The notes beneath the pieces are model-generated. The model saw only the letters and a list, made by a program, of their open reading frames with translations, was not told the DNA's origin and ran no database searches. This document shows positions 1-58,434 of a DNA stretch of 64,000 nt, in pieces. A program made the translations under genes and the position numbers. Source of the DNA: Metellina segmentata (lineage: Eukaryota; Arthropoda; Arachnida; Araneae; Tetragnathidae); assembly GCA_947359465.1 (NCBI GenBank), contig OX375877.1:73792698-73856697 (forward strand). Direction: 5' to 3'. How positions within the stretch are numbered: position 1 is the stretch's first letter; each line of letters opens with the position of its first letter.

Positions 1-164
1 TTCAATCGAAAAGATTTCACATAAATTTACTCTAGCAATAATATGGGAATGTTTGAAGATATCGTTCGAAAACTTTGAAGACGGAGTTATAACAAGTCGG
101 GAAAACATTGAATCAGAGGTTCCATTGGTGGTTAAACAAGTTTAGAAAACAAACCGAATCATAC

Positions 165-242
165 CTGTCACTGGAGTAGTTGAACTACCAGTGCCTGCTG
201 TTGGTGTCGATCCGGAACTAGCTCCGCTAACGGTAGACCCAC
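165..242 (-). CDS. Type exon A (unit 1)
   Basis: 78 bp, phase 1-1. Acceptor tattttag|GTGGGT, donor GTGACAG|gtatga. It encodes GSTVSGASSGSTPTAG then TGSSTTPVT with a split Gly at each end. It shares the TPTA-TGSSTTPV core with exons C and D, so the exons of a unit are paralogues of each other. Confidence 0.82.
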
Positions 243-3200
243 CTAAAATACACATTTAAAACTTATTTATTCCAAAAAGTTTGAGAGTTGTCCTTATTTA
301 AAAAGGTAACCAGAGTTTAGATTAACTTTAGAAATAAAAATAATTGTCTTCGAAACACAAGAAGGAACAGTATTTTTCGTATTTCCTGTACACTCAACTC
401 TGAAGTAGTTCGTAGCCAGAATTAAGAAATGAAGAAATTTTATGAATTGTTCTCGGCGTGGGAGAGCAATTAAGGCTTTACCTGTGGACGATCCTGGTGT
501 ACCCGAAGATCCTGTATTTCCAGATGTAGAGGATCCTGGAGTTCCAGAAGATCCTGTGTTTGCAGATTGACTGACATCTGGGCTCGAATTGCTGGATGAG
601 GATCCACCTGAAAAGAACAAATGGTTTTCTTAATCTGAAAAATACTTTCTCTTTGCTGATAATCAGCACGAAATAATGGCTGTGAAAAGAGGATTCGGGC
701 AAGATAATGTACGAAAAAAGAAGAAAAGCATAGCTTTAGATTTCCTGCCAGCAGCATAGTTTGAACGTTTCGATGTAAGAATTTTAGAACAGTGTACAAC
801 ATACGCGTTTGAAATAAAACAGCGCATAAAAGCAATTCTAATGCGAAAGCAATGTATTTATTTATAATAGTACCTGTCGACACAGGTGTAGTAGATGATC
901 CAGTACTTGCTGTTGGTGTCGAAGCTGGACTAGAATCACTTGTTGATGAGCCACCTGATCAAAGATGGAAGATAATATTAATATCTATGATTTTCTTCTC
1001 AACTTTGAATAGCAGTTGTAAATGAATGAGCATTTATTAAAAACTGGGAAAGAAAAAGAAGATATTTTGACGAAAATATTTTTTCAATTGAAAATTCCGT
1101 TAACACTTTTAGTTAAACTTGTAGTTTTTTCCAGCATGTTTTTACAATTCTACCAAACGAAAATATTCCCTTAGGAATGAAACGTAAAAGGAGACAGTGT
1201 CTGTCACACCTGTCGTAGAAACAGGTAAGATGGAAGAACCTGTGCTTGCAGTTGGAGTTGACGCAGGTCTCGAATCACTTACAGTTGATCCGCCTGTAAT
1301 TTAAATTATGTGAAATCTCGCATCTAAACCTATGAGTTGAAGCCTACATGCATATGATGAAAAGAATGCCACTAGGAACTGTACTTTTTTCACAAATTGA
1401 AGACGAAATGTTATAAAAAATTTGTTTCGATTTACTTATAAGTCCAAATTACCATGAATACTTTCTGAAGTAAGGTTAGAACCACAGAAATTTTGACGTT
1501 TACAGTTAACGATAACCTGTTGCTTTTTTCGCGACTCTCAAAGTCAGCTTTAATATTCGTATATATTTTGAAACTTTAAATTCTCAAATGTTAATTTTCG
1601 TTGATACAGGTGACTTAGAGGATCCAAGGCTCCCTTTTACAGTGGAAGCAATACTTGAACAACTTGCCCAAAATCCACCTGGATGTAAAATTGATTGCAT
1701 TTGCTAATTTCTACAAGTGAAGTATCAATATCTTTCCCTCACTCAAACATTAAACATATTTGAGTTGTATATTTCGATACATAATTGTAGTTATACTATT
1801 CAATCGAAAAGATTTCACATAAATTTACTCTAGCAATAATATGGGAATGTTTGAAGATATCGTTCGAAAACTTTGAAGACGGAGTTATAACAAGTCGGGA
1901 AAACATTGAATCAGAGGTTCCATTGGTGGTTAAACAAGTTTAGAAAACAAACCGAATCATACCTGTCACTGGAGTAGTTGAACTACCAGTGCCTGCTGTT
2001 GGTGTCGATCCGGAACTAGCTCCGCTAACGGTAGACCCACCTAAAATACACATTTAAAACTTATTTATTCCAAAAAGTTTGAGAGTTGTCCTCTTTTAAA
2101 AAGGTAACCAGAGTTTAGATTAACTTTAGAAATAAAAATAATTGTCTTCGAAACACAAGAAGGAACAGTATTTTTCGTATTTTCTGTACACTCAACTCTG
2201 AAGTAGTTCGTAGCCAGAATTAAGAAATGAAGAAATTTTATGAATTGTTCTCGGCGTGGGAGAGCAATTAAGGCTTTACCTGTGGACGATCCTGGTGTAC
2301 CCGAAGATCCTGTATTTCCAGATGTAGAGGATCCTGGAGTTCCAGAAGATCCTGTGTTTGCAGATTGACTGACATCTGGGCTCGAATTGCTGGATGAGGA
2401 TCCACCTGAAAAGAACAAATGGTTTTCTTAATCTGAAAAATACTTTCTCTTTGCTGATAATCAGCACGAAATAATGGCTGTGAAAAGAGGAATCGGGCAA
2501 GATAATGTACGAAAAAAAGAAGAAAAGCATAGCTTTAGATTTCCTGCCAGCAGCATAGTTTGAACGTTTCGATGTAAGAATTTTAGAACAGTGTACAACA
2601 TACGCGTTTGAAATAAAACAGCGCATAAAAGCAATTCTAATGCGAAAGCAATGTATTTATTGATAATAGTACCTGTCGACACAGGTGTAGTAGATGATCC
2701 AGTACTTGCTGTTGGTGTCGAAGCTGGACTAGAATCACTTGTTGATGAGCCACCTGATCAAAGATGGAAGATAATATTAATATCTATGATTTTCTTCTCA
2801 ACTTTGAATAGCAGTTGTAAATGAATGAGCATTTATTAAAAACTGGGAAAGAAAAAGAAGATATTTTGACGAAAATATTTTTTCAATTGAAAATTCCGTT
2901 AACACTTTTAGTTAAACTTGTAGTTTTTTCCAGCATGTTTTTACAATTCTACCAAACGAAAATATTCCCTTAGGAATGAAACGTAAAAGGAGACAGTGTC
3001 TGTCACACCTGTCGTAGAAACAGGTAAGGTGGAAGAACCTGTGCTTGCAGTTGGAGTTGACGCAGGACTCGAATCACTTACAGTTGATCCGCCTGTAATT
3101 TAAATTATGTGAAATCTCGCATCTAAACCTATGAGTTGAAGCCTACATGCATATGATGAAAAGAATGCCACTAGGAACTGTACTTTTTTCACAAAACGAA

Positions 3201-6200
3201 GACGAAATGTTATAAAAAATTTGTTTCGATTTACTTATAAGTCCAAATTACCATGAATACTTTCTGAAGTAAGGTTAGAACCACAGAAATTTTGACGTTT
3301 ACAGTTAACGATAACCTGTTGCTTTTTTCGCGACTCTCAAAGTCAGCTTTAATATTCGTATATATTTTGAAACTTTAAATTCTCAAATGTTAATTTTCGT
3401 TGATACAGGTGACTTAGAGGATCCAAGGCTCCCTTTTACAGTGGAAGCAATACTTGAACAACTTGCCCAAAATCCACCTGGATGTAAAATTGATTGCATT
3501 TGCTAATTTCTACAAGTGAAGTATCAATATCTTTCCCTCACTCAAACATTAAACATATTTGAGTTGTATATTTCGATACATAATCGTAGTTATACTATTC
3601 AATCGAAAAGATTTCACATAAATTTACTCTAGCAATAATATGGGAATGTTTGAAGATATCGTTCGAAAACTTTGAAGACGGAGTTATAACAAGTCGGGAA
3701 AACATTGAATCAGAGGTTCCATTGGTGGTTAAACAAGTTTAGAAAACAAACCGAATCATACCTGTCACTGGAGTAGTTGAACTACCAGTGCCTGCTGTTG
3801 GTGTCGATCCGGAACTAGCTCCGCTAACGGTAGACCCACCTAAAATACACATTTAAAACTTATTTATTCCAAAAAGTTTGAGAGTTGTCCTTATTTAAAA
3901 AGGTAACCAGAGTTTAGATTAACTTTAGAAATAAAAATAATTGTCTTCGAAACACAAGAAGGAACAGTATTTTTCGTATTTCCTGTACACTCAACTCTGA
4001 AGTAGTTCGTAGCCAGAATTAAGAAATGAAGAAATTTTATGAATTGTTCTCGGCGTGGGAGAGCAATTAAGGCTTTACCTGTGGACGATCCTGGTGTACC
4101 CGAAGATCCTGTATTTCCAGATGTAGAGGATCCTGGAGTTCCAGAAGATCCTGTGTTTGCAGATTGACTGACATCTGGGCTCGAATTGCTGGATGAGGAT
4201 CCACCTGAAAAGAACAAATGGTTTTCTTAATCTGAAAAATACTTTCTCTTTGCTGATAATCAGCACGAAATAATGGCTGTGAAAAGAGGATTCGGGCAAG
4301 ATAATGTACGAAAAAAGAAGAAAAGCATAGCTTTAGATTTCCTGCCAGCAGCATAGTTTGAACGTTTCGATGTAAGAATTTTAGAACAGTGTACAACATA
4401 CGCGTTTGAAATAAAACAGCGCATAAAAGCAATTCTAATGCGAAAGCAATGTATTTATTTATAATAGTACCTGTCGACACAGGTGTAGTAGATGATCCAG
4501 TACTTGCTGTTGGTGTCGAAGCTGGACTAGAATCACTTGTTGATGAGCCACCTGATCAAAGATGGAAGATAATATTAATATCTATGATTTTCTTCTCAAC
4601 TTTGAATAGCAGTTGTAAATGAATGAGCATTTATTAAAAACTGGGAAAGAAAAAGAAGATATTTTGACGAAAATATTTTTTCAATTGAAAATTCCGTTAA
4701 CACTTTTAGTTAAACTTGTAGTTTTTTCCAGCATGTTTTTACAATTCTACCAAACGAAAATATTCCCTTAGGAATGAAACGTAAAAGGAGACAGTGTCTG
4801 TCACACCTGTCGTAGAAACAGGTAAGATGGAAGAACCTGTGCTTGCAGTTGGAGTTGACGCAGGTCTCGAATCACTTACAGTTGATCCGCCTGTAATTTA
4901 AATTATGTGAAATCTCGCATCTAAACCTATGAGTTGAAGCCTACATGCATATGATGAAAAGAATGCCACTAGGAACTGTACTTTTTTCACAAATTGAAGA
5001 CGAAATGTTATAAAAAATTTGTTTCGATTTACTTATAAGTCCAAATTACCATGAATACTTTCTGAAGTAAGGTTAGAACCACAGAAATTTTGACGTTTAC
5101 AGTTAACGATAACCTGTTGCTTTTTTCGCGACTCTCAAAGTCAGCTTTAATATTCGTATATATTTTGAAACTTTAAATTCTCAAATGTTAATTTTCGTTG
5201 ATACAGGTGACTTAGAGGATCCAAGGCTCCCTTTTACAGTGGAAGCAATACTTGAACAACTTGCCCAAAATCCACCTGGATGTAAAATTGATTGCATTTG
5301 CTAATTTCTACAAGTGAAGTATCAATATCTTTCCCTCACTCAAACATTAAACATATTTGAGTTGTATATTTCGATACATAATCGTAGTTATACTATTCAA
5401 TCGAAAAGATTTCACATAAATTTACTCTAGCAATAATATGGGAATGTTTGAAGATATCGTTCGAAAACTTTGAAGACGGAGTTATAACAAGTCGGGAAAA
5501 CATTGAATCAGAGGTTCCATTGGTGGTTAAACAAGTTTAGAAAACAAACCGAATCATACCTGTCACTGGAGTAGTTGAACTACCAGTGCCTGCTGTTGGT
5601 GTCGATCCGGAACTAGCTCCGCTAACGGTAGACCCACCTAAAATACACATTTAAAACTTATTTATTCCAAAAAGTTTGAGAGTTGTCCTTATTTAAAAAG
5701 GTAACCAGAGTTTAGATTAACTTTAGAAATAAAAATAATTGTCTTCGAAACACAAGAAGGAACAGTATTTTTCGTATTTTCTGTACACTCAACTCTGAAG
5801 TAGTTCGTAGCCAGAATTAAGAAATGAAGAAATTTTATGAATTGTTCTCGGCGTGGGAGAGCAATTAAGGCTTTACCTGTGGACGATCCTGGTGTACCCA
5901 AAGATCCTGTATTTCCAGATGTAGAGGATCCTGGAGTTCCAGAAGATCCTGTGTTTGCAGATTGACTGACATCTGGGCTCGAATTGCTGGATGAGGATCC
6001 ACCTGAAAAGAACAAATGGTTTTCTTAATCTGAAAAATACTTTCTCTTTGCTGATAATCAGCATGAAATAATGGCTGTGAAAAGAGGATTCGGGCAAGAT
6101 AATGTACGAAAAAAAGAAGAAAAGCATAGCTTTAGATTTCCTGCCAGCAGCATAGTTTGAACGTTTCGATGTAAGAATTTTAGAACAGTGTACAACATAC

Positions 6201-9200
6201 GCGTTTGAAATAAAACAGCGCATAAAAGCAATTCTAATGCGAAAGCAATGTATTTATTTATAATAGTACCTGTCGACACAGGTGTAGTAGATGATCCAGT
6301 ACTTGCTGTTGGTGTCGAAGCTGGACTAGAATCACTTGTTGATGAGCCACCTGATCAAAGATGGAAGATAATATTAATATCTATGATTTTCTTCTCAACT
6401 TTGAATAGCAGTTGTAAATGAATGAGCATTTATTAAAAACTGGGAAAGAAAAAGAAGATATTTTGACGAAAATATTTTTTCAATTGAAAATTCCGTTAAC
6501 ACTTTTAGTTAAACTTGTAGTTTTTTCCAGCATGTTTTTACAATTCTACCAAACGAAAATATTCCCTTAGGAATGAAACGTAAAAGGAGACAGTGTCTGT
6601 CACACCTGTCGTAGAAACAGGTAAGGTGGAAGAACCTGTGCTTGCAGTTGGAGTTGACGCAGGTCTCGAATCACTTACAGTTGATCCGCCTGTAATTTAA
6701 ATTATGTGAAATCTCGCATCTAAACCTATGAGTTGAAGCCTACATGCATATGATGAAAAGAATGCCACTAGGAACTGTACTTTTTTCACAAAACGAAGAC
6801 GAAATGTTATAAAAAATTTGTTTCGATTTACTTATAAGTCCAAATTACCATGAATACTTTCTGAAGTAAGGTTAGAACCACAGAAATTTTGACGTTTACA
6901 GTTAACGATAACCTGTTGCTTTTTTCGCGACTCTCAAAGTCAGCTTTAATATTCGTATATATTTTGAAACTTTAAATTCTCAAATGTTAATTTTCGTTGA
7001 TACAGGTGACTTAGAGGATCCAAGGCTCCCTTTTACAGTGGAAGCAATACTTGAACAACTTGCCCAAAATCCACCTGGATGTAAAATTGATTGCATTTGC
7101 TAATTTCTACAAGTGAAGTATCAATATCTTTCCCTCACTCAAACATTAAACATATTTGAGTTGTATATTTCGATACATAATTGTAGTTATACTATTCAAT
7201 CGAAAAGATTTCACATAAATTTACTCTAGCAATAATATGGGAATGTTTGAAGATATCGTTCGAAAACTTTGAAGACGGAGTTATAACAAGTCGGGAAAAC
7301 ATTGAATCAGAGGTTCCATTGGTGGTTAAACAAGTTTAGAAAACAAACCGAATCATACCTGTCACTGGAGTAGTTGAACTACCAGTGCCTGCTGTTGGTG
7401 TCGATCCGGAACTAGCTCCGCTAACGGTAGACCCACCTAAAATACACATTTAAAACTTATTTATTCCAAAAAGTTTGAGAGTTGTCCTCTTTTAAAAAGG
7501 TAACCAGAGTTTAGATTAACTTTAGAAATAAAAATAATTGTCTTCGAAACACAAGAAGGAACAGTATTTTTCGTATTTTCTGTACACTCAACTCTGAAGT
7601 AGTTCGTAGCCAGAATTAAGAAATGAAGAAATTTTATGAATTGTTCTCGGCGTGGGAGAGCAATTAAGGCTTTACCTGTGGACGATCCTGGTGTACCCGA
7701 AGATCCTGTATTTCCAGATGTAGAGGATCCTGGAGTTCCAGAAGATCCTGTGTTTGCAGATTGACTGACATCTGGGCTCGAATTGCTGGATGAGGATCCA
7801 CCTGAAAAGAACAAATGGTTTTCTTAATCTGAAAAATACTTTCTCTTTGCTGATAATCAGCACGAAATAATGGCTGTGAAAAGAGGAATCGGGCAAGATA
7901 ATGTAAGGAAAAAAAGAAGAAAAGCATAGCTTTAGATTTCCTGCCAGCAGCATAGTTTGAACGTTTCGATGTAAGAATTTTAGAACAGTGTACAACATAC
8001 GCGTTTGAAATAAAACAGCGCATAAAAGCAATTCTAATGCGAAAGCAATGTATTTATTGATAATAGTACCTGTCGACACAGGTGTAGTAGATGATCCAGT
8101 ACTTGCTGTTGGTGTCGAAGCTGGACTAGAATCACTTGTTGATGAGCCACCTGATCAAAGATGGAAGATAATATTAATATCCATGATTTTCTTCTCAACT
8201 TTGAATAGCAGTTGTAAATGAATGAGCATTTATTAAAAACTTGGAAAGAAAAAGAAGATATGTTGACGAAAATATTTTTTCAATTGAAAATTCCGTTAAC
8301 ACTTTTAGTTAAACTTGTAGTTTTTTCAAGCATGTTTTTACAATTATACCAAACGAAAATATTCCCTTAGGAATGAAACGTAAAAGGAGACAGTGTCTGT
8401 CACACCTGTCGTAGAAACAGGTAAGGTGGAAGAACCTGTGCTTGCAGTTGGAGTTGACGCAGGACTCGAATCACTTACAGTTGATCCGCCTGTAATTTAA
8501 ATTATGTGAAATCTCGCATCTAAACCTATGAGTTGAAGCCTACATGCATATGATGAAAAGAATGCCACTAGGAACTGTACTTTTTTCACAAAACGAAGAC
8601 GAAATGTTATAAAAAATTTGTTTCGATTTACTTATAAGTCCAAATTACCATGAATACTTTCTGAAGTAAGGTTAAAACCACAGAAATTTTGACGTTTACA
8701 GTTAACGATAACCTGTTGCTTTTTTCGCGACTCTCAAAGTCAGCTTTAATATTCGTATATATTTTGAAACTTTAAATTCTCAAATGTTAATTTTCGTTGA
8801 TACAGGTGACTTAGAGGATCCAAGGCTCCCTTTTACAGTGGAAGCAATACTTGAACAACTTGCCAAAAATCCACCTGGATGTAAAATTGATTGCATTTGC
8901 TAATTTCTACAAGTGAAGTATCAATATCTTTCCCTCACTCAAACATTAAACATATTTGAGTTGTATATTTCGATACATAATTGTAGTTATACTATTCAAT
9001 CGAAAAGATTTCACATAAATTTACTCTAGCAATAATATGGGAATGTTTGAAGATATCGTTCGAAAACTTTGAAGACGGAGTTATAACAAGTCGGGAAAAC
9101 ATTGAATCAGAGGTTCCATTGGTGGTTAAACAAGTTTAGAAAACAAACCGAATCATACCTGTCACTGGAGTAGTTGAACTACCAGTGCCTGCTGTTGGTG

Positions 9201-12200
9201 TCGATCCGGAACTAGCTCCGCTAACGGTAGACCCACCTAAAATACACATTTAAAACTTATTTATTCCAAAAAGTTTGAGAGTTGTCCTCTTTTAAAAAGG
9301 TAACCAGAGTTTAGATTAACTTTAGAAATAAAAATAATTGTCTTCGAAACACAAGAAGGAACAGTATTTTTCGTATTTTCTGTACACTCAACTCTGAAGT
9401 AGTTCGTAGCCAGAATTAAGAAATGAAGAAATTTTATGAATTGTTCTCGGCGTGGGAGAGCAATTAAGGCTTTACCTGTGGACGATCCTGGTGTACCCGA
9501 AGATCCTGTATTTCCAGATGTAGAGGATCCTGGAGTTCCAGAAGATCCTGTGTTTGCAGATTGACTGACATCTGGGCTCGAATTGCTGGATGAGGATCCA
9601 CCTGAAAAGAACAAATGGTTTTCTTAATCTGAAAAATACTTTCTCTTTGCTGATAATCAGCACGAAATAATGGCTGTGAAAAGAGGAATCGGGCAAGATA
9701 ATGTAAGGAAAAAAAGAAGAAAAGCATAGCTTTAGATTTCCTGCCAGCAGCATAGTTTGAACGTTTCGATGTAAGAATTTTAGAACAGTGTACAACATAC
9801 GCGTTTGAAATAAAACAGCGCATAAAAGCAATTCTAATACGAAAGCAATGTATTTATTGATAATAGTACCTGTGGACACAGGTGTAGTAGATGATCCAGT
9901 ACTTGCTGTTGGTGTCGAAGCTGGACTAGAATCACTTGTTGATGAGCCACCTGATCAAAGATGGAAGATAATATTAATATCTATGATTTTCTTCTCAACT
10001 TTGAATAGCAGTTGTAAATGAATGAGCATTTATTAAAAACTGGGAAAGAAAAAGAAGATATTTTGACGAAAATATTTTTTCAATTGAAAATTCCGTTAAC
10101 ACTTTTAGTTAAACTTGTAGTTTTTTCAAGCATGTTTTTACAATTATACCAAACGAAAATATTCCCTTAGGAATGAAACGTAAAAGGAGACAGTGTCTGT
10201 CACACCTGTCGTAGAAACAGGTAAGGTGGAAGAACCTGTGCTTGCAGTTGGAGTTGACGCAGGACTCGAATCACTTACAGTTGATCCGCCTGTAATTTAA
10301 ATTATGTGAAATCTCGCATCTAAACCTATGAGTTGAAACCTACATGCATATGATGAAAAGAATGCCACTAGGAACTGTACTTTTTTCACAAAACGAAGAC
10401 GAAATGTTATAAAAAATTTGTTTCGATTTACTTATAAGTCCAAATTACCATGAATACTTTCTGAAGTAAGGTTAGAACCACAGAAATTTTGACGTTTACA
10501 GTTAACGATAACCTGTTGCTTTTTTCGCGACTCTCAAAGTCAGCTTTAATATTCGTATATATTTTGAAACTTTAAATTCTCAAATGTTAATTTTCGTTGA
10601 TACAGGTGACTTAGAGGATCCAAGGCTCCCTTTTACAGTGGAATCAATACTTGAACAACTTGCCAAAAATCCACCTGGATGTAAAATTGATTGCATTTGC
10701 TAATTTCTACAAGTGAAGTATCAATATCTTTCCCTCACTCAAACATTAAACATATTTGAGTTGTATATTTCGATACATAATTGTAGTTATACTATTCAAT
10801 CGAAAAGATTTCACATAAATTTACTCTAGCAATAATATGGGAATGTTTGAAGATATCGTTCGAAAACTTTGAAGACGGAGTTATAACAAGTCGGGAAAAC
10901 ATTGAATCAGAGGTTCCATTGGTGGTTAAACAAGTTTAGAAAACAAACCGAATCATACCTGTCACTGGAGTAGTTGAACTACCAGTGCCTGCTGTTGGTG
11001 TCGATCCGGAACTAGCTCCGCTAACGGTAGACCCACCTAAAATACACATTTAAAACTTATTTATTCCAAAAAGTTTGAGAGTTGTCCTCTTTTAAAAAGG
11101 TAACCAGAGTTTAGATTAACTTTAGAAATAAAAATAATTGTCTTCGAAACACAAGAAGGAACAGTATTTTTCGTATTTTCTGTACACTCAACTCTGAAGT
11201 AGTTCGTAGCCAGAATTAAGAAATGAAGAAATTTTATGAATTGTTCTCGGCGTGGGAGAGCAATTAAGGCTTTACCTGTGGACGATCCTGGTGTACCCGA
11301 AGATCCTGTATTTCCAGATGTAGAGGATCCTGGAGTTCCAGAAGATCCTGTGTTTGCAGATTGACTGACATCTGGGCTCGAATTGCTGGATGAGGATCCA
11401 CCTGAAAAGAACAAATGGTTTTCTTAATCTGAAAAATACTTTCTCTTTGCTGATAATCAGCACGAAATAATGGCTGTGAAAAGAGGAATCGGGCAAGATA
11501 ATGTAAGGAAAAAAAGAAGAAAAGCATAGCTTTAGATTTCCTGCCAGCAGCATAGTTTGAACGTTTCGATGTAAGAATTTTAGAACAGTGTACAACATAC
11601 GCGTTTGAAATAAAACAGCGCATAAAAGCAATTCTAATACGAAAGCAATGTATTTATTGATAATAGTACCTGTCGACACAGGTGTAGTAGATGATCCAGT
11701 ACTTGCTGTTGGTGTCGAAGCTGGACTAGAATCTCTTGTTGATGAGCCACCTGATCAAAGATGGAAGATAATATTAATATCTATGATTTTCTTCTCAACT
11801 TTGAATAGCAGTTGTAAATGAATGAGCATTTATTAAAAACTGGGAAAGAAAAATAAGATATTTTGACGAAAATATTTTTTCAATTGAAAATTCCGTTAAC
11901 ACTTTTAGTTAAACTTGTAGTTTTTTCAAGCATGTTTTTACAATTATACCAAACGAAAATATTCCCTTAGGAATGAAACGTAAAAGGAGACAGTGTCTGT
12001 CACACCTGTCGTAGAAACAGGTAAGGTGGAAGAACCTGTGCTTGCAGTTGGAGTTGACGCAGGACTCGAATCACTTACAGTTGATCCGCCTGTAATTTAA
12101 ATTATGTGAAATCTCGCATCTAAACCTATGAGTTGAAGCCTACATGCATATGATGAAAAGAATGCCACTAGGAACTGTACTTTTTTCACAAAACGAAGAC

Positions 12201-30200: not shown

Positions 30201-33200
30201 AATACTTGAACAACTTGCCAAAAATCCATCTGGATGTAAAATTGATTGCATTTGCTAATTTCTACAAGTGAAGTATCAATATCTTTCCCGCACTCAAACA
30301 TTAAACAGATTTGAGTTGTATATTTCGATACATAATTGTAGTTATACTATTCAATCGAAAAGATTTCACATAAATTTACTCTAGCAATAATATGGGAATG
30401 TTTGAAGATATCGTTCGAAAACTTTGAAGACGGAGTTATAACATGTCGGGAAAACATTGAATCAGAGGTTTCATTGGTGGTTAAACAAGTTTAGAAAACA
30501 AACCGAATCATACCTGTCACTGGAGTAGTTGAACTACCAGTGCCTGCTGTTGGTGTCGATCCGGAACTAGCTCCGCTAACGGTAGACCCACCTAAAATAC
30601 ACATTTAAAACTTATTTATTCCAAAAAGTTTGAGAGTTGTCCTCTTTTATAAGGTAACCAGAGTTTAGATTAACATTAGAAATAAAAATAATTGCCTTCG
30701 AAACACAAGAAGGAACAGTATTTTTCGTATTTTCTGTACACTCAACTCTGAAGTAGTTCGTAGCCAGAATTAAGAAATGAAGAAATTTTATGAATTGTTC
30801 TCGGCGTGGGAGAGCAATTAAGGCTTTACCTGTGGACGATCCTGGTGTACCCGAAGATCCTGTATTTCCAGATGTAGAGGATCCTGGAGTTCCAGAAGAT
30901 CCTGTGTTTGCAGATTGACTGACATCTGGGCTCGAATTGCTGGATGAGGATCCACCTGAAAAGAACAAATGGTTTTCTTAATCTGAAAAATACTTTCTCT
31001 TTGCTGATAATCAGCACGAAATAATGGCTGTGAAAAGAGGAATCGGGCAAGATAATGTAAGGAAAAAAAGAAGAAAAGCATAGCTTTAGATTTCCTGCCA
31101 GCAGCATAGTTTGAACGTTTCGATGTAAGAATTTTAGAACAGTGTACAACATACGCGTTTGAAATAAAACAGCGCATAAAAGCAATTCTAATGCGAAAGC
31201 AATGTATTTATTGATAATAGTACCTGTCGACACAGGTGTAGTAGATGATCCAGTACTTGCTGTTGGTGTCGAAGCTGGACTAGAATCACTTGTTGATGAG
31301 CCACCTGATCAAAGATGGAAGATAATATTAATATCTATGATTTTCTTCTCAACTTTGAATAGCAGTTGTAAATGAATGAGCATTTATTAAAAACTGGGAA
31401 AGAAAAAAGAAGATATTTTGACGAAAATATTTTTTCAATTGAAAATTCCGTTAACACTTTTAGTTAAACTTGTAGTTTTTTCCAGCATGTTTTTACAATT
31501 CTACCAAACGAAAATATTCCCTTAGGAATGAAACGTAAAAGGAGACAGTGTCTGTCACACCTGTCGTAGAAACAGGTAAGGTGGAAGAACCTGTGCTTGC
31601 AGTTGGAGTTGACGCAGGACTCGAATCACTTACAGTTGATCCGCCTGTAATTTAAATTATGTGAAATCTCGCATCTAAACCTATGAGTTGAAGCCTACAT
31701 GCATATGATGAAAAGAATGCCACTAGGAACTGTACTTTTTTCACAAAACGAAGACGAAATGTTATAAAAAATTTGTTTCGATTTACTTATAAGTCCAAAT
31801 TACCATGAATACTTTCTGAAGTAAGGTTAGAACCACAGAAATTTTGACGTTTACAGTTAACGATAACCTGTTGCTTTTTTCGCGACTCTCAAAGTCAGCT
31901 TTAATATTCGTATATATTTTGAAACTTTAAATTCTCAAATGTTAATTTTCGTTGATACAGGTGACTTAGAGGATCCAAGGCTCTCTTTTACAGTGGAAGC
32001 AATACTTGAACAACTTGCCAAAAATCCACCTGGATGTAAAATTGATTGCATTTGCTAATTTCTACAAGTGAAGTATCAATATCTTTCCCGCACTCAAACA
32101 TTAAACAGATTTGAGTTGTATATTTCGATACATAATTGTAGTTATACTATTCAATCGAAAAGATTTCACATAAATTTACTCTAGCAATAATATGGGAATG
32201 TTTGAAGATATCGTTCGAAAACTTTGAAGACGGAGTTATAACATGTCGGGAAAACATTGAATCAGAGGTTTCATTGGTGGTTAAACAAGTTTAGAAAACA
32301 AACCGAATCATACCTGTCACTGGAGTAGTTGAACTACCAGTGCCTGCTGTTGGTGTCGATCCGGAACTAGCTCCGCTAACGGTAGACCCACCTAAAATAC
32401 ACATTTAAAACTTATTTATTCCAAAAAGTTTGAGAGTTGTCCTCTTTTAAAAAGGTAAACAGAGTTTAGATTAACTTTAGAAATAAAAATAATTGTCTTC
32501 GAAACACAAGAAGAAACAGTATTTTTCGTATTTTCTGTACACTCAACTCTGAAGTAGTTCGTAGCCAGAATTAAGAAATGAAGAAATTTTATGAATTGTT
32601 CTCGGCGTGGGAGAGCAATTAAGGCTTTACCTGTGGACGATCCTGGTGCACCCGAAGATCCTGTATTTCCAGATGTAGAGGATCCTGGAGTTCCAGAAGA
32701 TCCTGTGTTTGCAGATTGACTTACATCTGGGCTCGAATTGCTGGACGAGGATCCACCTGAAAAGAACAAATGGTTTTCTTAATCTGAAAAACACTTTCTC
32801 TTTGCTGATAATCAGCACGAAATGATGGCTGTGAAAAGAGGAATCGGGCAAGATAATGTACGAAAAAAAGAAGAAAAGCATAGCTTTAGATTTCCTGCCA
32901 GCAGCATAGTTTGAACGTTTCGATGTAAGAATTTTAGAACAGTGTACAACATACGCGTTTGAAATAAAACAGCGCATAAAAGCAATTCTAATGCGAAAGC
33001 AATGAATTTATTGATAATAGTACCTGTCGACACAGGTGTAGTAGATGATCCAGTACTTGCTGTTGGTGTCGAAGCTGGACTAGAATCACTTGTTGATGAG
33101 CCACCTGATCAAAGATGGAAGGTAATATTAATATCTATGATTTTCTTCTCAACTTTGAATAGCAGTTGTAAATGAATGAGCATTTATTAAAAACTGGGAA

Positions 33201-36200
33201 AGAAAAAAGAAGATATTTTGACGAAAATATTTTTTCAATTGAAAATTCCGTTAACACTTTTAGTTAAACTTGTAGTTTTTTCCAGCATGTTTTTACAATT
33301 CTACCAAACGAAAATATTCCCTTAGGAATGAAACGTAAAAGGAGACAGTGTCTGTCACACCTGTCGTAGAAACAGGTAAGGTGGAAGAACCTGTGCTTGC
33401 AGTTGGAGTTGACGCAGGACTCGAATCACTTACAGTTGATCCGCCTGTAATTTAAATTATGTGAAATCTCGCATCTAAACCTATGAGTTGAAGCCTACAT
33501 GCATATGATGAAAAGAATGCCACTAGGAACTGTACTTTTTTCACAAAACGAAGACGAAATGTTATAAAAAATTTGTTTCGATTTACTTATAAGTCCAAAT
33601 TACCATGAATACTTTCTGAAGTAAGGTTAGAATCACAGAAATTTTGACGTTTACAGTTAACGATAACCTGTTGCTTTTTTCGCGACTCTCAAAGTCAGCT
33701 TTAATATTCGTATATATTTTGAAACTTTAAATTCTCAAATGTTAATTTTCGTTGATACAGGTGACTTAGAGGATCCAAGGCTCTTTTTTACAGTGGAAGC
33801 AATACTTGAAAAACTTGCCAAAAATCCACCTGGATGTAAAATTGATTGCATTTGCTAATTTCTACAAGTGAAGTATCAATATCTTTCCCGCACTCAAACA
33901 TTAAACAGATTTGAGTTGTATATTTCGATACATAATTGTAGTTATACTATTCAATCGAAAAGATTTCACATAAATTTACTCTAGCAATAATATGGGAATG
34001 TTTGAAGATATGGTTCGAAAACTTTGAAGACGGAGTTATAACAAGTCGGGAAAACATTGAATCAGAGGTTTCATTGGTGGTTAAACAAGTTTAGAAAACA
34101 AACCGAATCATACCTGTCACTGGAGTAGTTGAACTACCAGTGCCTGCTGTTGGTGTCGATCCGGAACTAGCTCCGCTAACGGTAGACCCACCTAAAATAC
34201 ACATTTAAAACTTATTTATTCCAAAAAGTTTGAGAGTTGTCCTCTTTTAAAAAGGTAAACAGAGTTTAGATTAACTTTAGAAATAAAAATAATTGTCTTC
34301 GAAACACAAGAAGGAACAGTATTTTTCGTATTTTCTGTACACTCAACTCTGAAGTAGTTCGTAGCCAGAATTAAGAAATGAAGAAATTTTATGAATTGTT
34401 TTTGGCGTGGGAGAGCAATTAAGGCTTTACCTGTGGACGATCCTGGTGTACCCGAAGATCCTGTATTTCCAGATGTAGAGGATCCTGGAGTTCCAGAAGA
34501 TCCTGTGTTTGCAGATTGACTGACATCTGGGCTCGAATTGCTGGATGAGGATCCACCTGAAAAGAACAAATGGTTTTCTTAATCTGAAAAATACTTTCTC
34601 TTTGCTGATAATCAGCACGAAATGATGGCTGTGAAAAGAGGAATCGGGCAAGATAATGTACGAAAAAAAGAAGAAAAGCATAGCTTTAGATTTCCTGCCA
34701 GCAGCATAGTTTGAACGTTTCGATGTAAGAATTTTAGAACAGTGTACAACATACGCGTTTGAAATAAAACAGCGCATAAAAGCAATGCGAAAGCAATGTA
34801 TTTATTGATAATAGTACCTGTCGACACAGGTGTAGTAGATGATCCAGTACTTGCTGTTGGTGTCGAAGCTGGACTAGAATCACTTGTTGATGAGCCACCT
34901 GATCAAAGATGGAAGATAATATTAATATCTATGATTTTCTTCTCAACTTTGAATAGCAGTTGTAAATGAATGAGCATTTATTAAAAACTGGGAAAGAAAA
35001 AAGAAGATATTTTGACGAAAATATTTTTTCAATTGAAAATTCCGTTAACACTTTTAGTTAAACTTGTAGTTTTTTCCAGCATGTTTTTACAATTCTACCA
35101 AACGAAAATATTCCCTTAGGAATGAAACGTAAAAGGAGACAGTGTCTGTCACACCTGTCGTAGAAACAGGTAAGGTGGAAGAACCTGTGCTTGCAGTTGG
35201 AGTTGACGCAGGACTCGAATCACTTACAGTTGATCCGCCTGTAATTTAAATTATGTGAAATCTCGCATCTAAACCTATGAGTTGAAGCCTACATGCATAT
35301 GATGAAAAGAATGCCACTAGGAACTGTACTTTTTTCACAAAACGAAGACGAAATGTTATAAAAAATTTGTTTCGATTTACTTATAAGTCCAAATTACCAT
35401 GAATACTTTCTGAAGTAAGGTTAGAACCACAGAAATTTTGACGTTTACAGTTAACGATAACCTGTTGCTTTTTTCGCGACTCTCAAAGTCAGCTTTAATA
35501 TTCGTATATATTTTGAAACTTTAAATTCTCAAATGTTAATTTTCGTTGATACAGGTGACTTAGAGGATCCAAGGCTCTCTTTTACAGTGGAAGCAATACT
35601 TGAACAACTTGCCAAAAATCCACCTGGATGTAAAATTGATTGCATTTGCTAATTTCTACAAGTGAAGTATCAATATCTTGCCCGCACTCAAACATTAAAC
35701 ATATTTGAGTTGTATATTTCGATACATAATTGTAGTTATACTATTCAATCGAAAAGATTTCACATAAATTTACTCTAGCAATAATATGGGAATGTTTGAA
35801 GATATCGTTCGAAAACTTTGAAAACGGAGTTATAACATGTCGGGAAAACATTGAATCAGAGGTTTCATTGGTGGTTAAACAAGTTTAGAAAACAAACCGA
35901 ATCATACCTGTCACTGGAGTAGTTGAACTACCAGTGCCTGCTGTTGGTGTCGATCCGGAACTAGCTCCGCTAACGGTAGACCCACCTAAAATACACATTT
36001 AAAACTTATTTATTCCAAAAAGTTTGAGAGTTGTCCTCTTTTAAAAAGGTAAACAGAGTTTAGATTAACTTTAGAAATAAAAATAATTGTCTTCGAAACA
36101 CAAGAAGGAACAGTATTTTTCGTATTTTCTGTACACTCAACTCTGAAGTAGTTCGTAGCCAGAATTAAGAAATGAAGAAATTTTATGAATTGTTCTCGGC

Positions 36201-39200
36201 GTGGGAGAGCAATTAAGGCTTTACCTGTGGACGATCCTGGTGTACCCGAAGATCCTGTATTTCCAGATGTAGAGGATCCTGGAGTTCCAGAAGATCCTGT
36301 GTTTGCAGATTGACTGACATCTGGGCTCGAATTGCTGGATGAGGATCCACCTGAAAAGAACAAATGGTTTTCTTAATCTGAAAAATACTTTCTCTTTGCT
36401 GATAATCAGCACGAAATGATGGCTGTGAAAAGAGGAATCGGGCAAGATAATGTACGAAAAAAAGAAGAAAAGCATAGCTTTAGATTTCCTGCCAGCAGCA
36501 TAGTTTGAACGTTTCGATGTAAGAATTTTAGAACAGTGTACAACATACGCGTTTGAAATAAAACAGCGCATAAAAGCAATGCGAAAGCAATGTATTTATT
36601 GATAATAGTACCTGTCGACACAGGTGTAGTAGATGATCCAGTACTTGCTGTTGGTGTCGAAGCTGGACTAGAATCACTTGTTGATGAGCCACCTGATCAA
36701 AGATGGAAGATAATATTAATATCTATGATTTTCTTCTCAACTTTGAATAGCAGTTGTAAATGAATGAGCATTTATTAAAAACTGGGAAAGAAAAAAGAAG
36801 ATATTTTGACGAAAATATTTTTTCAATTGAAAATTCCGTTAACACTTTTAGTTAAACTTGTAGTTTTTTCCAGCATGTTTTTACAATTCTACCAAACGAA
36901 AATATTCCCTTAGGAATGAAACGTAAAAGGAGACAGTGTCTGTCACACCTGTCGTAGAAACAGGTAAGGTGGAAGAACCTGTGCTTGCAGTTGGAGTTGA
37001 CGCAGGACTCGAATCACTTACAGTTGATCCGCCTGTAATTTAAATTATGTGAAATCTCGCATCTAAACCTATGAGTTGAAGCCTACATGCATATGATGAA
37101 AAGAATGCCACTAGGAACTGTACTTTTTTCACAAAACGAAGACGAAATGTTATAAAAAATTTGTTTCGATTTACTTATAAGTCCAAATTACCATGAATAC
37201 TTTCTGAAGTAAGGTTAGAACCACAGAAATTTTGACGTTTACAGTTAACGATAACCTGTTGCTTTTTTCGCGACTCTCAAAGTCAGCTTTAATATTCGTA
37301 TATATTTTGAAACTTTAAATTCTCAAATGTTAATTTTCGTTGATACAGGTGACTTAGAGGATCCAAGGCTCTCTTTTACAGTGGAAGCAATACTTGAACA
37401 ACTTGCCAAAAATCCACCTGGATGTAAAATTGCTTGCATTTGCAAATTTCTACAAGTGAAGTATCAATATCTTTCCCGCACTCAAACATTAAACAGATTT
37501 GAGTTGTATATTTCGATACATAATTGTAGTTATACTATTCAATCGAAAAGATTTCACATAAATTTACTCTAGCAATAATATGGGAATGTTTGAAGATATC
37601 GTTCGAAAACTTTGAAAACGGAGTTATAACATGTCGGGAAAACATTGAATCAGAGGTTTCATTGGTGGTTAAACAAGTTTAGAAAACAAACCGAATCATA
37701 CCTGTCACTGGAGTAGTTGAACTACCAGTGCCTGCTGTTGGTGTCGATCCGGAACTAGCTCCGCTAACGGTAGACCCACCTAAAATACACATTTAAAACT
37801 TATTTATTCCAAAAAGTTTGAGAGTTGTCCTCTTTTAAAAAGGTAAACAGAGTTTAGATTAACTTTAGAAATAAAAATAATTGTCTTCGAAACACAAGAA
37901 GGAACAGTATTTTTCGTATTTTCTGTACACTCAACTCTGAAGTAGTTCGTAGCCAGAATTAAGAAATGAAGAAATTTTATGAATTGTTCTCGGCGTGGGA
38001 GAGAAATTAAGGCTTTACCTGTGGACGATCCTGGTGTACCCGAAGATCCTGTATTTCCAGATGTAGAGGATCCTGGAGTTCCAGAAGATCCTGTGTTTGC
38101 AGATTGACTGACATCTGGGCTCGAATTGCTGGATGAGGATCCACCTGAAAAGAACAAATGGTTTTCTTAATCTGAAAAATACTTTCTCTTTGCTGATAAT
38201 CAGCACGAAATAATGGCTGTGAAAAGAGGAATCGGGCAAGATGATGTACGAAAAAAAGAAGAAAAGCATAGCTTTAGATTTCCTGCCAGCAGCATAGTTT
38301 GAACGTTTCGATGTAAGAATTTTAGAACAGTGTACAACATACGCGTTTGAAATAAAACAGCGCATAAAAGCAATTCTAATGCGAAAGCAATGTATTTATT
38401 GATAATAGTACCTGTCGACACAGGTGTAGTAGATGATCCAGTACTTGCTGTTGGTGTCGAAGCTGGACTAGAATCACTTGTTGATGAGCCACCTGATCAA
38501 AGATGGAAGATAATATTAATATCTATGATTTTCTTCTCAACTTTGAATAGCAGTTGTAAATGAATGAGCATTTATTAAAAACTGGGAAAGAAAAAAGAAG
38601 ATATTTTGACGAAAATATTTTTTCAATTGAAAATTCCGTTAACACTTTTAGTTAAACTTGTAGTTTTTTCCAGCATGTTTTTACAATTCTACCAAACGAA
38701 AATATTCCCTTAGGAATGAAACGTAAAAGGAGACAGTGTCTGTCACACCTGTCGTAGAAACAGGTAAGGTGGAAGAACCTGTGCTTGCAGTTGGAGTTGA
38801 CGCAGGACTCGAATCACTTACAGTTGATCCGCCTGTAATTTAAATTATGTGAAATCTCGCATCTAAACCTATGAGTTGAAGCCTACATGCATATGATGAA
38901 AAGAATGCCACTAGGAACTGTACTTTTTTCACAAAACGAAGACGAAATGTTATAAAAAATTTGTTTCGATTTACTTATAAGTCCAAATTACCATGAATAC
39001 TTTCTGAAGTAAGGTTAGAACCACAGAAATTTTGACGTTTACAGTTAACGATAACCTGTTGCTTTTTTCGCGACTCTCAAAGTCAGCTTTAATATTCGTA
39101 TATATTTTGAAACTTTAAATTCTCAAATGTTAATTTTCGTTGATACAGGTGACTTAGAGGATCCAAGGCTCTCTTTTACAGTGGAAGCAATACTTGAACA

Positions 39201-42200
39201 ACTTGCCAAAAATCCACCTGGATGTAAAATTGATTGCATTTGCTAATTTCTACAAGTGAAGTATCAATATCTTTCCCGCACTCAAACATTAAACAGATTT
39301 GAGTTGTATATTTCGATACATAATTGTAGTTATACTATTCAATCGAAAAGATTTCACATAAATTTACTCTAGCAATAATATGGGAATGTTTGAAGATATC
39401 GTTCGAAAACTTTGAAGACGGAGTTATAACATGTCGGGAAAACATTGAATCAGAGGTTTCATTGGTGGTTAAACAAGTTTAGAAAACAAACCGAATCATA
39501 CCTGTCACTGGAGTAGTTGAACTACCAGTGCCTGCTGTTGGTGTCGATCCGGAACTAGCTCCGCTAACGGTAGACCCACCTAAAATACACATTTAAAACT
39601 TATTTATTCCAAAAAGTTTGAGAGTTGTCCTCTTTTAAAAAGGTAAACAGAGTTTAGATTAACTTTAGAAATAAAAATAATTGTCTTCGAAACACAAGAA
39701 GGAACAGTATTTTTCGTATTTTCTGTACACTCAACTCTGAAGTAGTTCGTAGCCAGAATTAAGAAATGAAGAAATTTTATGAATTGTTCTCGGCGTGGGA
39801 GAGCAATTAAGTCTTTACCTGTGGACGATCCTGGTGTACCCGAAGATCCTGTATTTCCAGATGTAGAGGATCCTGGAGTTCCAGAAGATCCTGTGTTTGC
39901 AGATTGACTGACATCTGGGCTCGAATTGCTGGATGAGGATCCACCTGAAAAGAACAAATGGTTTTCTTAATCTGAAAAATACTTTCTCTTTGCTGATAAA
40001 CAGCACGAAATAATGGCTGTGAAAAGAGGTATCGGGCAAGATAATGTACGAAAAAAAGAAGAAAAGCATAGCTTTAGATTTCCTGCCAGCAGCATAGTTT
40101 GAACGTTTCGATGTAAGAATTTTAGAACAGTGTACAACATATACGCGTTTGAAATAAAACAGCGCATAAAAGCAATTCTAATGCGAAAGCAATGTATTTA
40201 TTGATAATAGTACCTGTCGACACAGGTGTAGTAGATGATCCAGTACTTGCTGTTGGTGTCGAAGTTGGACTAGAATCACTTGTTGATGAGCCACCTGATC
40301 AAAGATGGAAGATAATATTAATATCTATGATTTTCTTCTCAACTTTGAATAGCAGTTGTAAATGAATGAGCATTTATTAAAAACTGGGAAAGAAAAAGAA
40401 GATATTTTGACGAAAATACTTTTTCAATTGAAAATTCCGTTAACACTTTTAGTTAAACTTGTAGTTTTTTCCAGCATGTTTTTACAATTCTACCAAACGA
40501 AAATATTCCCTTAGGAATGAAACGTAAAAGGAGACAGTGTCTGTCACACCTGTCGTAGAAACAGGTAAGGTGGAAGAACCTGTGCTTGCAGTTGGAGTTG
40601 ACGCAGGACTCGAATCACTTACAGTTGATCCGCCTGTAATTTAAATTATGTGAAATCTCGCATCTAAACCTATGAGTTGAAGCCTACATGCATATGATGA
40701 AAAGAATGCCACTAGGAACTGTACTTTTTTCACAAAACGAAGACGAAATGTTATAAAAAATTTGTTTCGATTTACTTATAAGTCCAAATTACCATGAATA
40801 GTTTCTGAAGTAAGGTTAGAACCACAGAAATTTTGACGTTTACAGTTAACGATAACCTGTTGCTTTTTTCGCGACTCTCAAAGTCAGCTTCAATATTCGT
40901 ATATATTTTGAAACTTTAAATTCTCAAATGTTAATTTTCGTTGATACAGGTGACTTAGAGGATCCAAGGCTCCCTTTTACAGTGGAAGCAATACTTGAAC
41001 AACTTGCCCAAAATCCACCTGGATGTAAAATTGATTGCATTTGCTAATTTCTACAAGTGAAGTATCAATATCTTTCCCTCACTCAAACATTAAACATATT
41101 TTAGTTGTATATTTCGATACATAATTGTAGTTATACTATTCAATCGAAAAGATTTCACATAAATTTACTCTAGCAATAATATGATAATGTTTGAAGATAT
41201 CGTTCGAAAACTTTGAAGACGGAGTTATAACAAGTCTTGAAAACATTGAATCAGAGGTTTCATTGGTGGTTAAACAAGTTTAGAAAACAAACCGAATCAT
41301 ACCTGTCACTGGAGTAGTTGAAGTACCAGTGCCTGCTGTTGGTGTCGATCCGGAACTAGCTCCGCTAACGGTAGACCCACCTAAAATATACATTTAAAAA
41401 TAATTTATTCCAAAACGTTTAAGAGTTGTCCTATTTAATAAAGGTAACCAGAGTTTAGATTAACTTTAGGAATAAAAATAATTGTCTTCGAAACACAAGA
41501 ATGCACAGTATTTTTTGTGTTTTCTCTACACTTAACTCGGAAGTAGTTCGTAGTCAGAATTAAAAAATTAAGAAGAAATTTAGAAATTTTAGGAATTGTT
41601 CTCGCTGTCGGATTACTTTTAAGGCTTTACCTGTAGATGATCCTGGTGATGTCGTAAAGAATTTTAAGATAACGGGAAAGGGTTACGAACTGCCGTTCTC
41701 GTGAACTGTTCTTTCGGGATCGGCGTGTCCTGAAGCGTGTGGTTCGTAAGCACTGCAAGAAAATACTCTAAATCATTAGCAGTGAGTTTCAACAGGCAGC
41801 AGTGGTTATGTTGCTCCTAATACTTTGCGGAAAGAACTGCTAGCTCTCAATGTGTTCTGATGTATTGCCGCACACAAACCTAACATCACCCCATCCAACC
41901 AAGCCTGTAGACTCGCTTGGTGTTTATAACGTTGCAACTGGTCTGTGGACCACTGGAAAACTGTTTCATTGAGTGACGAGTCACTCTACGTGCTCTTCCA
42001 GTGAGATGGCCGTGCTTGGGTTTTGCGAATGACAGGCGAACTCGAGAGCATCGTTCCAACTGTCAAGTTCGGTTTCTGTGGTGTTTCAGTTAAAACTTTT
42101 AATTTCACTTGTGGTTTCTTCCAGGATGTTATTACAATTCTACCAAACGAAATTATACTCTTAGTGATTAAACGTTAAATGAGACAGTGTCTATCATACC

Positions 42201-48200: not shown

Positions 48201-48966
48201 GGAAAGTTTTACTAATTCAGAAGAGACGGCGAATCACTCAAAGGGGAATCGAAACTCCACGGTCTGCAACTCACAGCTTGCTAGCCAGTGAGCAAACCCG
48301 CTGAGCCACAATGAGTCCTTAAATGAAAGAAAAATTCAGATTGCTCTTAGGTTTTACTTACTTCCATCTGGATCAGTTCCATAAGAGTAAGATTGTCCTG
48401 AAATTAAAAATCACATGTAGAGTTTAACAAAATGAGCTCAAGTTAACAAAATTCAAGAACAAATAGTTTTGAATTTCTTGTTCAATTTTTAATATAAATA
48501 CAGGGATATTTTAATGAGGCAACATTCTTTAGATCCACATTGTGTGATTGGTAAAATCTCTTTGGTCTTCCTTAAGTACTGTTCGAAACACTACAATAAA
48601 GATGCATTGAAAGAATTCTATTTTTTTGTTTATCGCTAAATTTGATATTGTAAATTTTTAAGCAGTAAATCAAAATTTATTGCAGAGAAAATTATCCGAT
48701 TTGCAAATCCACCTATCATCTGCCCAACCTCTATACTACGGCTGATACAGCTGTTGTACATTGATCGTGCCAAGCAATAATTTAGACTACGGCCATTATA
48801 GCAGTTGTACCGTGAAAGTTATAAGAATCGCGACAAAAAAGAATTTAGGCTATGGCCGGTACAGCAGTTGTGCATTTAAAGTTATAAAAATTGAGCCAAG
48901 AAATAATCGCCTCAATTATATCTATAGCCGAAGTCAAGAGGTTAAGGATTTTTCCAAGTTGTACTA

Positions 48967-50123: not shown

Positions 50124-50801
50124 TGCGAGATGTTTCGTCCATCAATGTTTGAACAATTTTGCCAATGTAACGAGATATCTCGTCCATAAAGATGTGGTCA
50201 ATTTTCTTATATTGACGAGATATCTCGTCCTTCAAGATGTGGTCAATTTTCTTATATTGACGAGATATCTCGTCCTTCAAGATGTGGTCAATTTTCTTAT
50301 ATTGACGAGATATCTCGTCCTTCAATATGTGGTCCATTTTCTTATGTTGTTGTTGTCGTGCGGGCCATATATGGCCCAATTGAGGGGGGCCATTGCCCCG
50401 GAGGGTTGGACTTCATCATGCATGACACATCCGTTTTACAGGAAGGTCCCTTTCACACATCCATTCACTCACACATATCGTAATTTAGATCCCAATCAGA
50501 GGCCGATAACCCCCTGATCAGGTTCCCCCAGAGGTATTGATTTGGTATGGAAACATGGGGGACTTTGTGACCACGACCTATTAACGTGCCCCAGCCACCA
50601 TTAGCGAACACGACGGTCTTTAGCCAGGTCCAAGCGCCGATCTCGCAACCATCAGAATTGCAGGATCTGCTGAGGACCGAACCCACAACCCTTCCGATGC
50701 GATCCCGACGCTCTACTGACTGAGCTACCGCGGCTCAACGTCCATTTTCTTATATTGACGAGGTATCTCGTCCATCATGGTCTAGTCAGTTTTTCTAATC
50801 A
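50124..50801. repeat. 45-bp minisatellite with a palindrome in each unit, split by a SINE
   Basis: Units start at 50124 (diverged), 50169, 50214, 50259, 50304 and 50757. Each good unit begins with the perfect 16-bp palindrome gacgagatatctcgtc, followed by a 29-bp spacer. A SINE interrupts between the fifth and sixth units; removing it and one target duplication restores the 45-bp phase exactly. Confidence 0.85.
50346..50739 (-). mobile_element. Young tRNA-derived SINE with 14-bp target duplication
   Basis: The minus-strand head gcggtagctcagtcagtag is a near-intact tRNA 5' half (A box) and gtgggttcggtcc is the B box. The tail toward 50346 is (CAA)-rich. The flanks 50332-50345 and 50740-50753 are an identical 14-bp duplication (gtccattttcttat). 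Confidence 0.88.

Positions 50802-57323: not shown

Positions 57324-58434
<1,111 letters not shown>

Follow-up and report, generated by a model that had tools for sequence, protein, structure and literature searches.

The stretch analyzed here, referred to as the window, comprises 64,000 nucleotides of chromosome 5 of the spider Metellina segmentata (assembly GCA_947359465.1, contig OX375877.1; window coordinate w corresponds to contig position 73,792,697 + w), and was extended by flanking sequence, 150 kb on its left and 50 kb on its right. It contains part of a tandem array of exon-intron units on the minus strand, preceded in the direction of transcription by several head exons, which probably belongs to a protein-coding gene for a giant secreted mucin-like structural protein. 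The features located within the window are collected in Table 1.

Units and exons of the array

The array spans 149 kb and consists of 80 complete units of ~1.8 kb, delimited by the exon order C-E-B-A-D (three further C exons opened no complete unit). Only 22 of these lie wholly in the window, and the array extends beyond the window start to window coordinate -107651, as the initial annotation had anticipated in describing 22 units that continue past the window. The length of 1794-1802 bp that it gave for all of them holds for 21 of the 22, the remaining one being 3354 bp long because of an insertion of ~1.55 kb; the end that it placed at 41138 had to be moved, given that the first full unit ends at 41380 and that diverged and partial copies lie beyond it up to about 44.6 kb. 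Comparison of one unit with the window using BLAST yielded 20 full-length matches (self included) at 98.6-99.8% identity, which bears out the proposal that the units are near-identical through their introns, along with one match split by the insertion, a partial match at the window start and, for the outer-edge unit, a match of 1,712 columns at 96.4%. A DNA search of the genome for the unit returned at least nine places, all inside the array (four were scored, and the number is an undercount).

Each unit carries four live exons, all of phase 1-1 and arranged in the transcript order C-(dead E)-B-A-D, whose final nucleotide opens a Gly codon: C (78 bp, GGSTVSGASSGSTPTAGTGSSTTPVT), B (84 bp, GGSTVSDSSPASTPTASTGSSTLPVSTT), A (81 bp, GGSSTSDSSPASTPTASTGSSTTPVST) and D (126 bp, GGSSSSNSSPDVSQSANTGSSGTPGSSTSGNTGSSGTPGSST). 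Borders were counted in the 326 exons of types A-D that were found by similarity in the whole array and the recognizable flanking copies (the count leaves out an incomplete D copy near 41.65 kb). Of these exons, 324 have the acceptor AG and 325 the donor GT, and the length is unchanged in all, in agreement with the GT/AG borders and the phase originally proposed; given that the copies are near-identical, these counts are not independent evidence. The commonest donors are GTAAAG (D), GTATGA (C), GTGTGA (B) and GTACTA (A). The GC content is 51% in exons vs 31% in introns, and only 24% at third codon positions of the exons.

The peptide of the consensus unit is 123 residues long (Ser 35.0, Thr 22.0, Gly 17.1, Pro 8.9, Ala 5.7 and Val 4.9%) and is devoid of Lys, Arg, Cys and aromatic residues as well as of GPGGX and poly-Ala motifs, with GG confined to exon-exon joins. 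The 22 units of the window thus account for 2,706 residues, in keeping with the approximately 2,700 residues of low-complexity Ser/Thr/Gly/Pro sequence initially annotated, and the 80 units for 9,840 residues, with a computed mass of 861 kDa before sugars and an isoelectric point of 4.05. At 57% Ser+Thr and 9% Pro, the unit peptide has the Ser/Thr/Pro-rich tandem repeats that are one mark of secreted mucins. Given that the consensus repeat has no trypsin sites, standard proteomics would see little of the protein; an S-to-R variant in exon B, found in 27 of the 76 aligned units (four units with long insertions were excluded from the alignment), adds such a site.

A fifth exon-like piece, E, has an acceptor in 80/80 units and a GT within 6 bases of the ancestral junction in 0/80, and was for this reason rejected as a live exon; GTs that occur in frame at 15, 18 and 24 bp (75/80 units have the full set with the same hexamers) would allow a tiny exon at most. 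Nucleotide diversity between units (pi) is 0.0143 for exon E, 0.0082 for introns and 0.0014-0.0119 for exons A-D. Exon E is carried along with the live exons by copying and so serves as a built-in control, and its joint copying implies that the target of exchange is the complete unit of DNA rather than the protein.

The mean number of differences between units rises from 8.7 for neighbors to 12.9 at 20 units apart and 33 at 70 units apart, and the outer units are more diverged than the inner ones. With gaps ignored, 17 pairs of units are free of substitutions, units u42 and u45-u48 show zero differences among them, and a six-unit block, u24-u29, recurs as u30-u35 with 0-1 differences per unit. 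An insertion of ~1 kb is common to u74, u76 and u77 (-93805 to -104025), which are 99.5-99.8% alike as whole units, so these units were copied after the insertion had landed. Judged from the sequence, this pattern is the signature of recent unequal crossing-over, a process argued for spider genes in passages of PMC9779670 and PMC3933166. Introns as alike as exons, along with likeness that falls with distance and at the ends, characterize the Flag type of repeat evolution, and the initial comparison with flagelliform-type homogenized exon-intron genes is thereby upheld as to the mode of evolution.

Table 1. Minus-strand features of the window (window coordinates)
Feature	Position	Strand	Details
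22 complete exon-intron units	243..41380	-	C-E-B-A-D in transcript order; first 22 of 80
Unit with insertion	23638..26991	-	3354 bp; intronic insertion of ~1.55 kb (~24807-26360) holding a 187-bp tandem repeat
Exon C of the first unit	41303..41380	-	78 bp, phase 1-1; GGSTVSGASSGSTPTAGTGTSTTPVT, then G; type-C example
Second upstream exon B copy	42200..42283	-	5/84 mismatches vs introns 115/538
Older copy of exon E	42583..42663	-	Readable as A-like exon GGSSASGSSRTSTPTASKGYFTSPVST; donor GT lost; 24/89 mismatches vs array E
Isolated upstream exon B copy	44487..44570	-	84 bp, identical to array consensus; 0/84 vs introns 85/469 (18%)
Head exon	46395..47063	-	669 bp, phase 1-1; Tyr-rich start TYYYYNGQQVYDYYPY, then Thr/Pro/Met repeats; ends in FGPNPPQT, then G
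Candidate head exon	48362..48397	-	36 bp, QSYSYGTDPDG; TTTCAG/GTAAGT borders keep phase 1-1; no independent support
Head exon	49749..49880	-	132 bp, phase 1-1, Tyr-rich; YNYYQNYGFGPYHYNYNYNYPTNANYPNYNQRYTYQVQYTYPN, then G; related to paralogue exon ~+139.2-139.4 kb
Weak candidate signal-peptide exon	62613..62670	-	MIRETLIVPLLGIIFPAVC, then G; phase-1 donor GTAAAT

Exon conservation inside the array and at its edges

The units inside the array are too young to reveal constraint. Segregating sites amount to 39/369 in exons A-D vs 195/1,341 in introns (p = 0.049), and the small indels among the aligned units comprise 20 distinct events, all 20 of them intronic (P about 0.01 by length); two larger insertions are likewise intronic.

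It is the diverged copies at the edges that show which parts selection preserved. Apart from the two upstream copies of exon B (Table 1), the first C exon (41380) has 1/78 mismatches to the consensus vs 34/442 in the adjacent introns. Summed over the edges, exons A-D have 20/324 mismatches vs 271/1,736 in introns (Fisher p = 2e-6) and, when the 3'-most C exon and its introns are removed, 6/246 vs 234/1,449 (p = 7e-11). The exon sum excludes the last D exon (0/126), given that the array continues on one side of it, as well as a D fragment of 18 bp (2 mismatches), with the introns beside both retained in the intron total. The edge copy of exon E, at 24/89, is no better kept than intron (115/538, p = 0.27). 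Gene conversion limited to exons was considered and rejected: the exon B copy at 44570 has 0 changes vs ~4.5 synonymous ones expected (P = 0.007), which concerns a single exon, and an apparent second case, the last D exon, is explained as the array edge. Taken together, the data support selection acting on exons A-D prior to and around the time of amplification, and leave present expression unproven.

Head exons, flanks and the neighboring paralogue

The array is preceded on the minus strand by head exons of phase 1-1 (Table 1). Three phase-1 candidates for a signal-peptide exon were noted in 50-82 kb; the one at 62670 exceeds the other two in hydrophobicity and is unique in the 294 kb tested. 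At the other end, an extra downstream phase-1 exon was detected at -111693 (GGSSSIDTNSEITPNPLLMELLNSTISLT).

A paralogue locus occupies +82 to +139 kb on the same strand. It consists of very long GGSST-rich exons at +82 to +130 kb, preceded by an SYYYYNGKAV exon (+131.9 kb) and, further upstream, a Tyr-rich exon (+139.2-139.4 kb), so that the order Tyr-rich exon, YYYYNG exon, repeats is common to both genes; the 669-bp head exon of the array gene has [ST]YYYYNG.. in common with the paralogue exon at about +131.9 kb. The likeness of the heads is weak: tblastx, confined to the local region, gave 1.5e-5 for the Tyr exon, and the head exons of the window were not among the places returned when the paralogue head was searched against the whole genome. 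The repeat exons of the paralogue are open for up to 1,789 codons, and its Ser/Thr/Gly/Pro-rich open stretches total 14,144 codons, which is an overcount given that some of them overlap and some run into flanks. These repeat exons contain at least seven in-frame stops, the first of which comes after three fully open exons; several of the stops are present in more than one copy and one of them in four copies. A signal-peptide exon proposed for the paralogue (MHVVNFILFACFLQGVAFTVANS, ~+139.8 kb) was withdrawn: the first residues of this candidate (MHVVNFILFACFLQGVAF.., ~+139818) match at least 147 other places in the genome (149 matches among the 150 scored of 2,538 candidates, two of them being the paralogue's own later exons), and the stretch is therefore a dispersed repeat posing as a signal exon.

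No third gene with a Ser/Thr/Gly/Pro-rich open stretch was seen in the next 10 kb on either side. A Ser/Thr-rich open stretch with two in-frame stops is located on the minus strand at -142201 to -140945 and is perhaps a dead relative. Among eight flanking open reading frames (of 138 listed) compared with Pfam, seven had no match and the eighth had a sub-threshold PuR_N match. The window also contains an almost pure dinucleotide run of 125 TA copies (57326-57575) and a 45-bp tandem repeat (50170-50745; 4 copies, 96% matches), beside which lies a ~380-bp stretch that recurs near +133 kb with 92% identity.

A putative giant mucin-like protein, its alternatives and known systems

The reading that we favor, with moderate confidence, is that of a Metellina gene encoding a giant secreted mucin-like structural protein. 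The sequence itself shows ~80 units of ~1.8 kb in tandem, in each of which four exon-like pieces have the symmetric phase 1-1, and which recent unequal exchange keeps alike, introns and dead exon included; because of the symmetric phase, a whole unit can be gained or lost in frame. Splicing would join C-B-A-D 80 times and yield an acidic chain of ~9,840 residues and ~861 kDa that is predicted to be secreted and O-glycosylated on its Ser and Thr residues (57%) and might function as an extended hydrated polymer in glue, fiber coat or epithelial mucus. Our confidence in this reading is divided about equally between a role in the silk gland and one in another mucin-secreting tissue. It is quite possible, then, that the protein contributes to neither silk nor glue and is a mucin of an epithelium outside the silk glands (gut, cuticle, egg or venom duct): its composition fits any secreted O-glycosylated mucin, there is no sequence pointer to the silk gland, and a human mucin, MUC16, is described as having the same build (PMC3431878, in part). 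What speaks against this variant is a prior only, namely, that extreme gene size combined with repeat homogenization is typical of spider silk and glue genes.

Several observations weigh against a functional mucin-like gene. The array interior has a ratio of nonsynonymous to synonymous polymorphism (pN/pS) of 0.68, which is indistinguishable from 1 (Fisher p = 0.26), and the 3'-most C exon is unconserved, with 14/78 mismatches. The donors of exon A (GTACTA) and exon B (GTGTGA) are weak by eye, and exon C is doubled at a spacing of 208 bp in two places (-60927/-61135 and -66534/-66742), both copies of each pair being open and one per pair having GG for AG. Exon B carries a TAA in three nearby units outside the window (-56276, -58075 and -59874) such that, with exon B included at these units, translation would end after about 53 units; the units downstream stay open and, given that exon B is symmetric, it could be skipped without a frameshift. 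The first exon and the signal-peptide exon are not established, the latter being represented by a weak candidate, and past the exon at -111693 the search revealed neither a terminal exon nor a C-terminal domain. The similarity searches point the same way. No Pfam family was detected in the head, the unit, the paralogue head or the downstream exon, and none of 4,303 candidate homologues of the unit reached E <= 0.001 in a protein database whose share of animal proteins is undetermined; no protein homologues of the paralogue head were found either, and its comparison with PDB, using a query that spanned the dispersed repeat described above, gave only two chance-level matches (E 0.39 and 0.46). 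With no Pfam family, PDB relative or homologue, the function is read from composition alone. None of five repeat-peptide motifs occurs in 5.39 million open-access papers.

Under the strongest rival explanation, the gene once coded for a protein and is now decaying, the units duplicate in a satellite-like manner by unequal exchange, and the open exons are relics of recent copying. We consider this scenario unlikely, and nevertheless a live rival given the three stop-bearing units and the stops in the paralogue. The pN/pS value, the lack of a proven first or last exon, the dead exon E carried in all 80 units and the divergence of the 3'-most C exon to intron level are all compatible with decay, as is the presence of one paralogue stop in four copies. 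On the other side, divergence from the consensus is far lower in the first C exon and in the upstream copies of exon B than in their introns, which is not the case for exon E, and among the 326 exons there are zero frameshifts, with 79/82 copies of exon B and 244/244 copies of A, C and D open. The stop-bearing units also offer a test case for the purging or spread of a nonsense mutation by concerted evolution in a giant gene.

An inflated copy number, whereby a shorter array was misassembled into 80 units, appears very improbable. The difference-free runs (u45-u48, about 7 kb) leave the exact count uncertain there, but the joined 264 kb around the array contain zero N, and many units have private or block-shared variants in a graded pattern not readily made by misassembly; the assembly is given in part of its description as HiFi with a quality value of 59.5 (PMC11519618).

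Least probable of all is a spidroin, flagelliform- or aggregate-like, with terminal domains that were missed: the spider genome, the homogenized exon-intron repeats of Flag and MaSp2 (PMC9779670, in part) and the giant, Thr-rich AgSp genes (PMC6553539, in part) speak for it, but Spidroin_N has 31 and Spidroin_MaSp (C-terminal) 23 matches genome-wide and neither has any on chromosome 5, the head exons match no Pfam family, and the unit lacks GPGGX and poly-Ala motifs, with GG only at exon-exon joins. The Spidroin_N matches elsewhere serve as a positive control for this search, which was made frame by frame, so that an intron-split domain could be missed. Given that no terminal-domain match lies on this chromosome, the gene was not classed as a spidroin, in line with the original remark that its repeat does not match known spidroin motifs. 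At C7:56756828-56797999, Spidroin N- and C-terminal matches lie in an open frame of 13,786 codons, which, judging by its size, we take to be probably the aggregate spidroin AgSp1 of this species.

Returning to the mucin-like gene, a more specific and tentative proposal is that it belongs to a new family of giant silk or glue proteins of spiders, separate from the spidroins and comprising at least two adjacent paralogues in which a Tyr-rich head is followed by a mucin-like core of ~10,000 residues, one paralogue being assembled from ~320 tiny symmetric exons. Such a family would be easily overlooked, given that spidroin surveys seek spidroin termini and that the consensus repeat offers trypsin neither Lys nor Arg. 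One such survey, which used the same assembly, is described in part of its text as starting from terminal domains and filtering out genes >100 kb (PMC11646306), and is for these reasons not expected to report the locus. If the proposal is correct, the number of units would vary between individuals and tune the chain length. If expressed, the protein would approach the aggregate spidroins in size (compare the 13,786-codon frame above) and would represent a non-spidroin case of spiders building a giant protein by copying whole exon-intron units.

Among known systems, sericins, the glue proteins of silk moths, are Ser-rich, large, repeat-built silk coats, but they are insect and not arachnid proteins. 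AgSF1 and AgSF2 are non-spidroin glue proteins that are not known to have spidroin features or to share the repeat motifs of the array, and Flag has long repeat exons. The present gene has instead 80 units with four tiny exons each and differs from both Flag and MaSp2 in being Ser/Thr-rich, with no GPGGX or poly-Ala and no spidroin terminal domain on its chromosome. What it shares with Flag and the Argiope MaSp2 is a repeat region of near-identical exon-intron units in a spider gene (for MaSp2, as described in part of PMC9779670) and with Flag and AcSp1 the lesser homogenization of the first and last repeats (part of PMC3933166). Latrodectus AgSF1 and AgSF2 are likewise spider aggregate-gland proteins with internal block repeats (parts of PMC4275877 and PMC8631074), but are reported as non-glycosylated; they are set apart here by description and not by sequence. 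AgSp1 and AgSp2, according to part of PMC6553539, are similarly giant and repetitive, with Thr and Ser beside Gly and Pro in a glue thought to be O-glycosylated, whereas the Argiope AgSp1 has two big exons and repeats with 17.8% Ser+Thr, compared to ~320 small exons and 57% here. The AgSp proteins also have spidroin termini. In its build, the array is closest to the mucin MUC16 (CA125), for which part of PMC3431878 gives a repeat of ~1,900 bp with 5 exons and 156 residues, and >9,360 residues in all, compared to ~1,800 bp, four live exons and a dead one, 123 residues and ~9,840 residues in the present mucin-like gene. The two differ in that Pfam comparison of the unit peptide gave no family at E <= 1, and hence no SEA domain, that the consensus is free of Cys, and that no transmembrane part was seen, the C-terminus not having been located; the likeness between the two arrays is presumably convergent.

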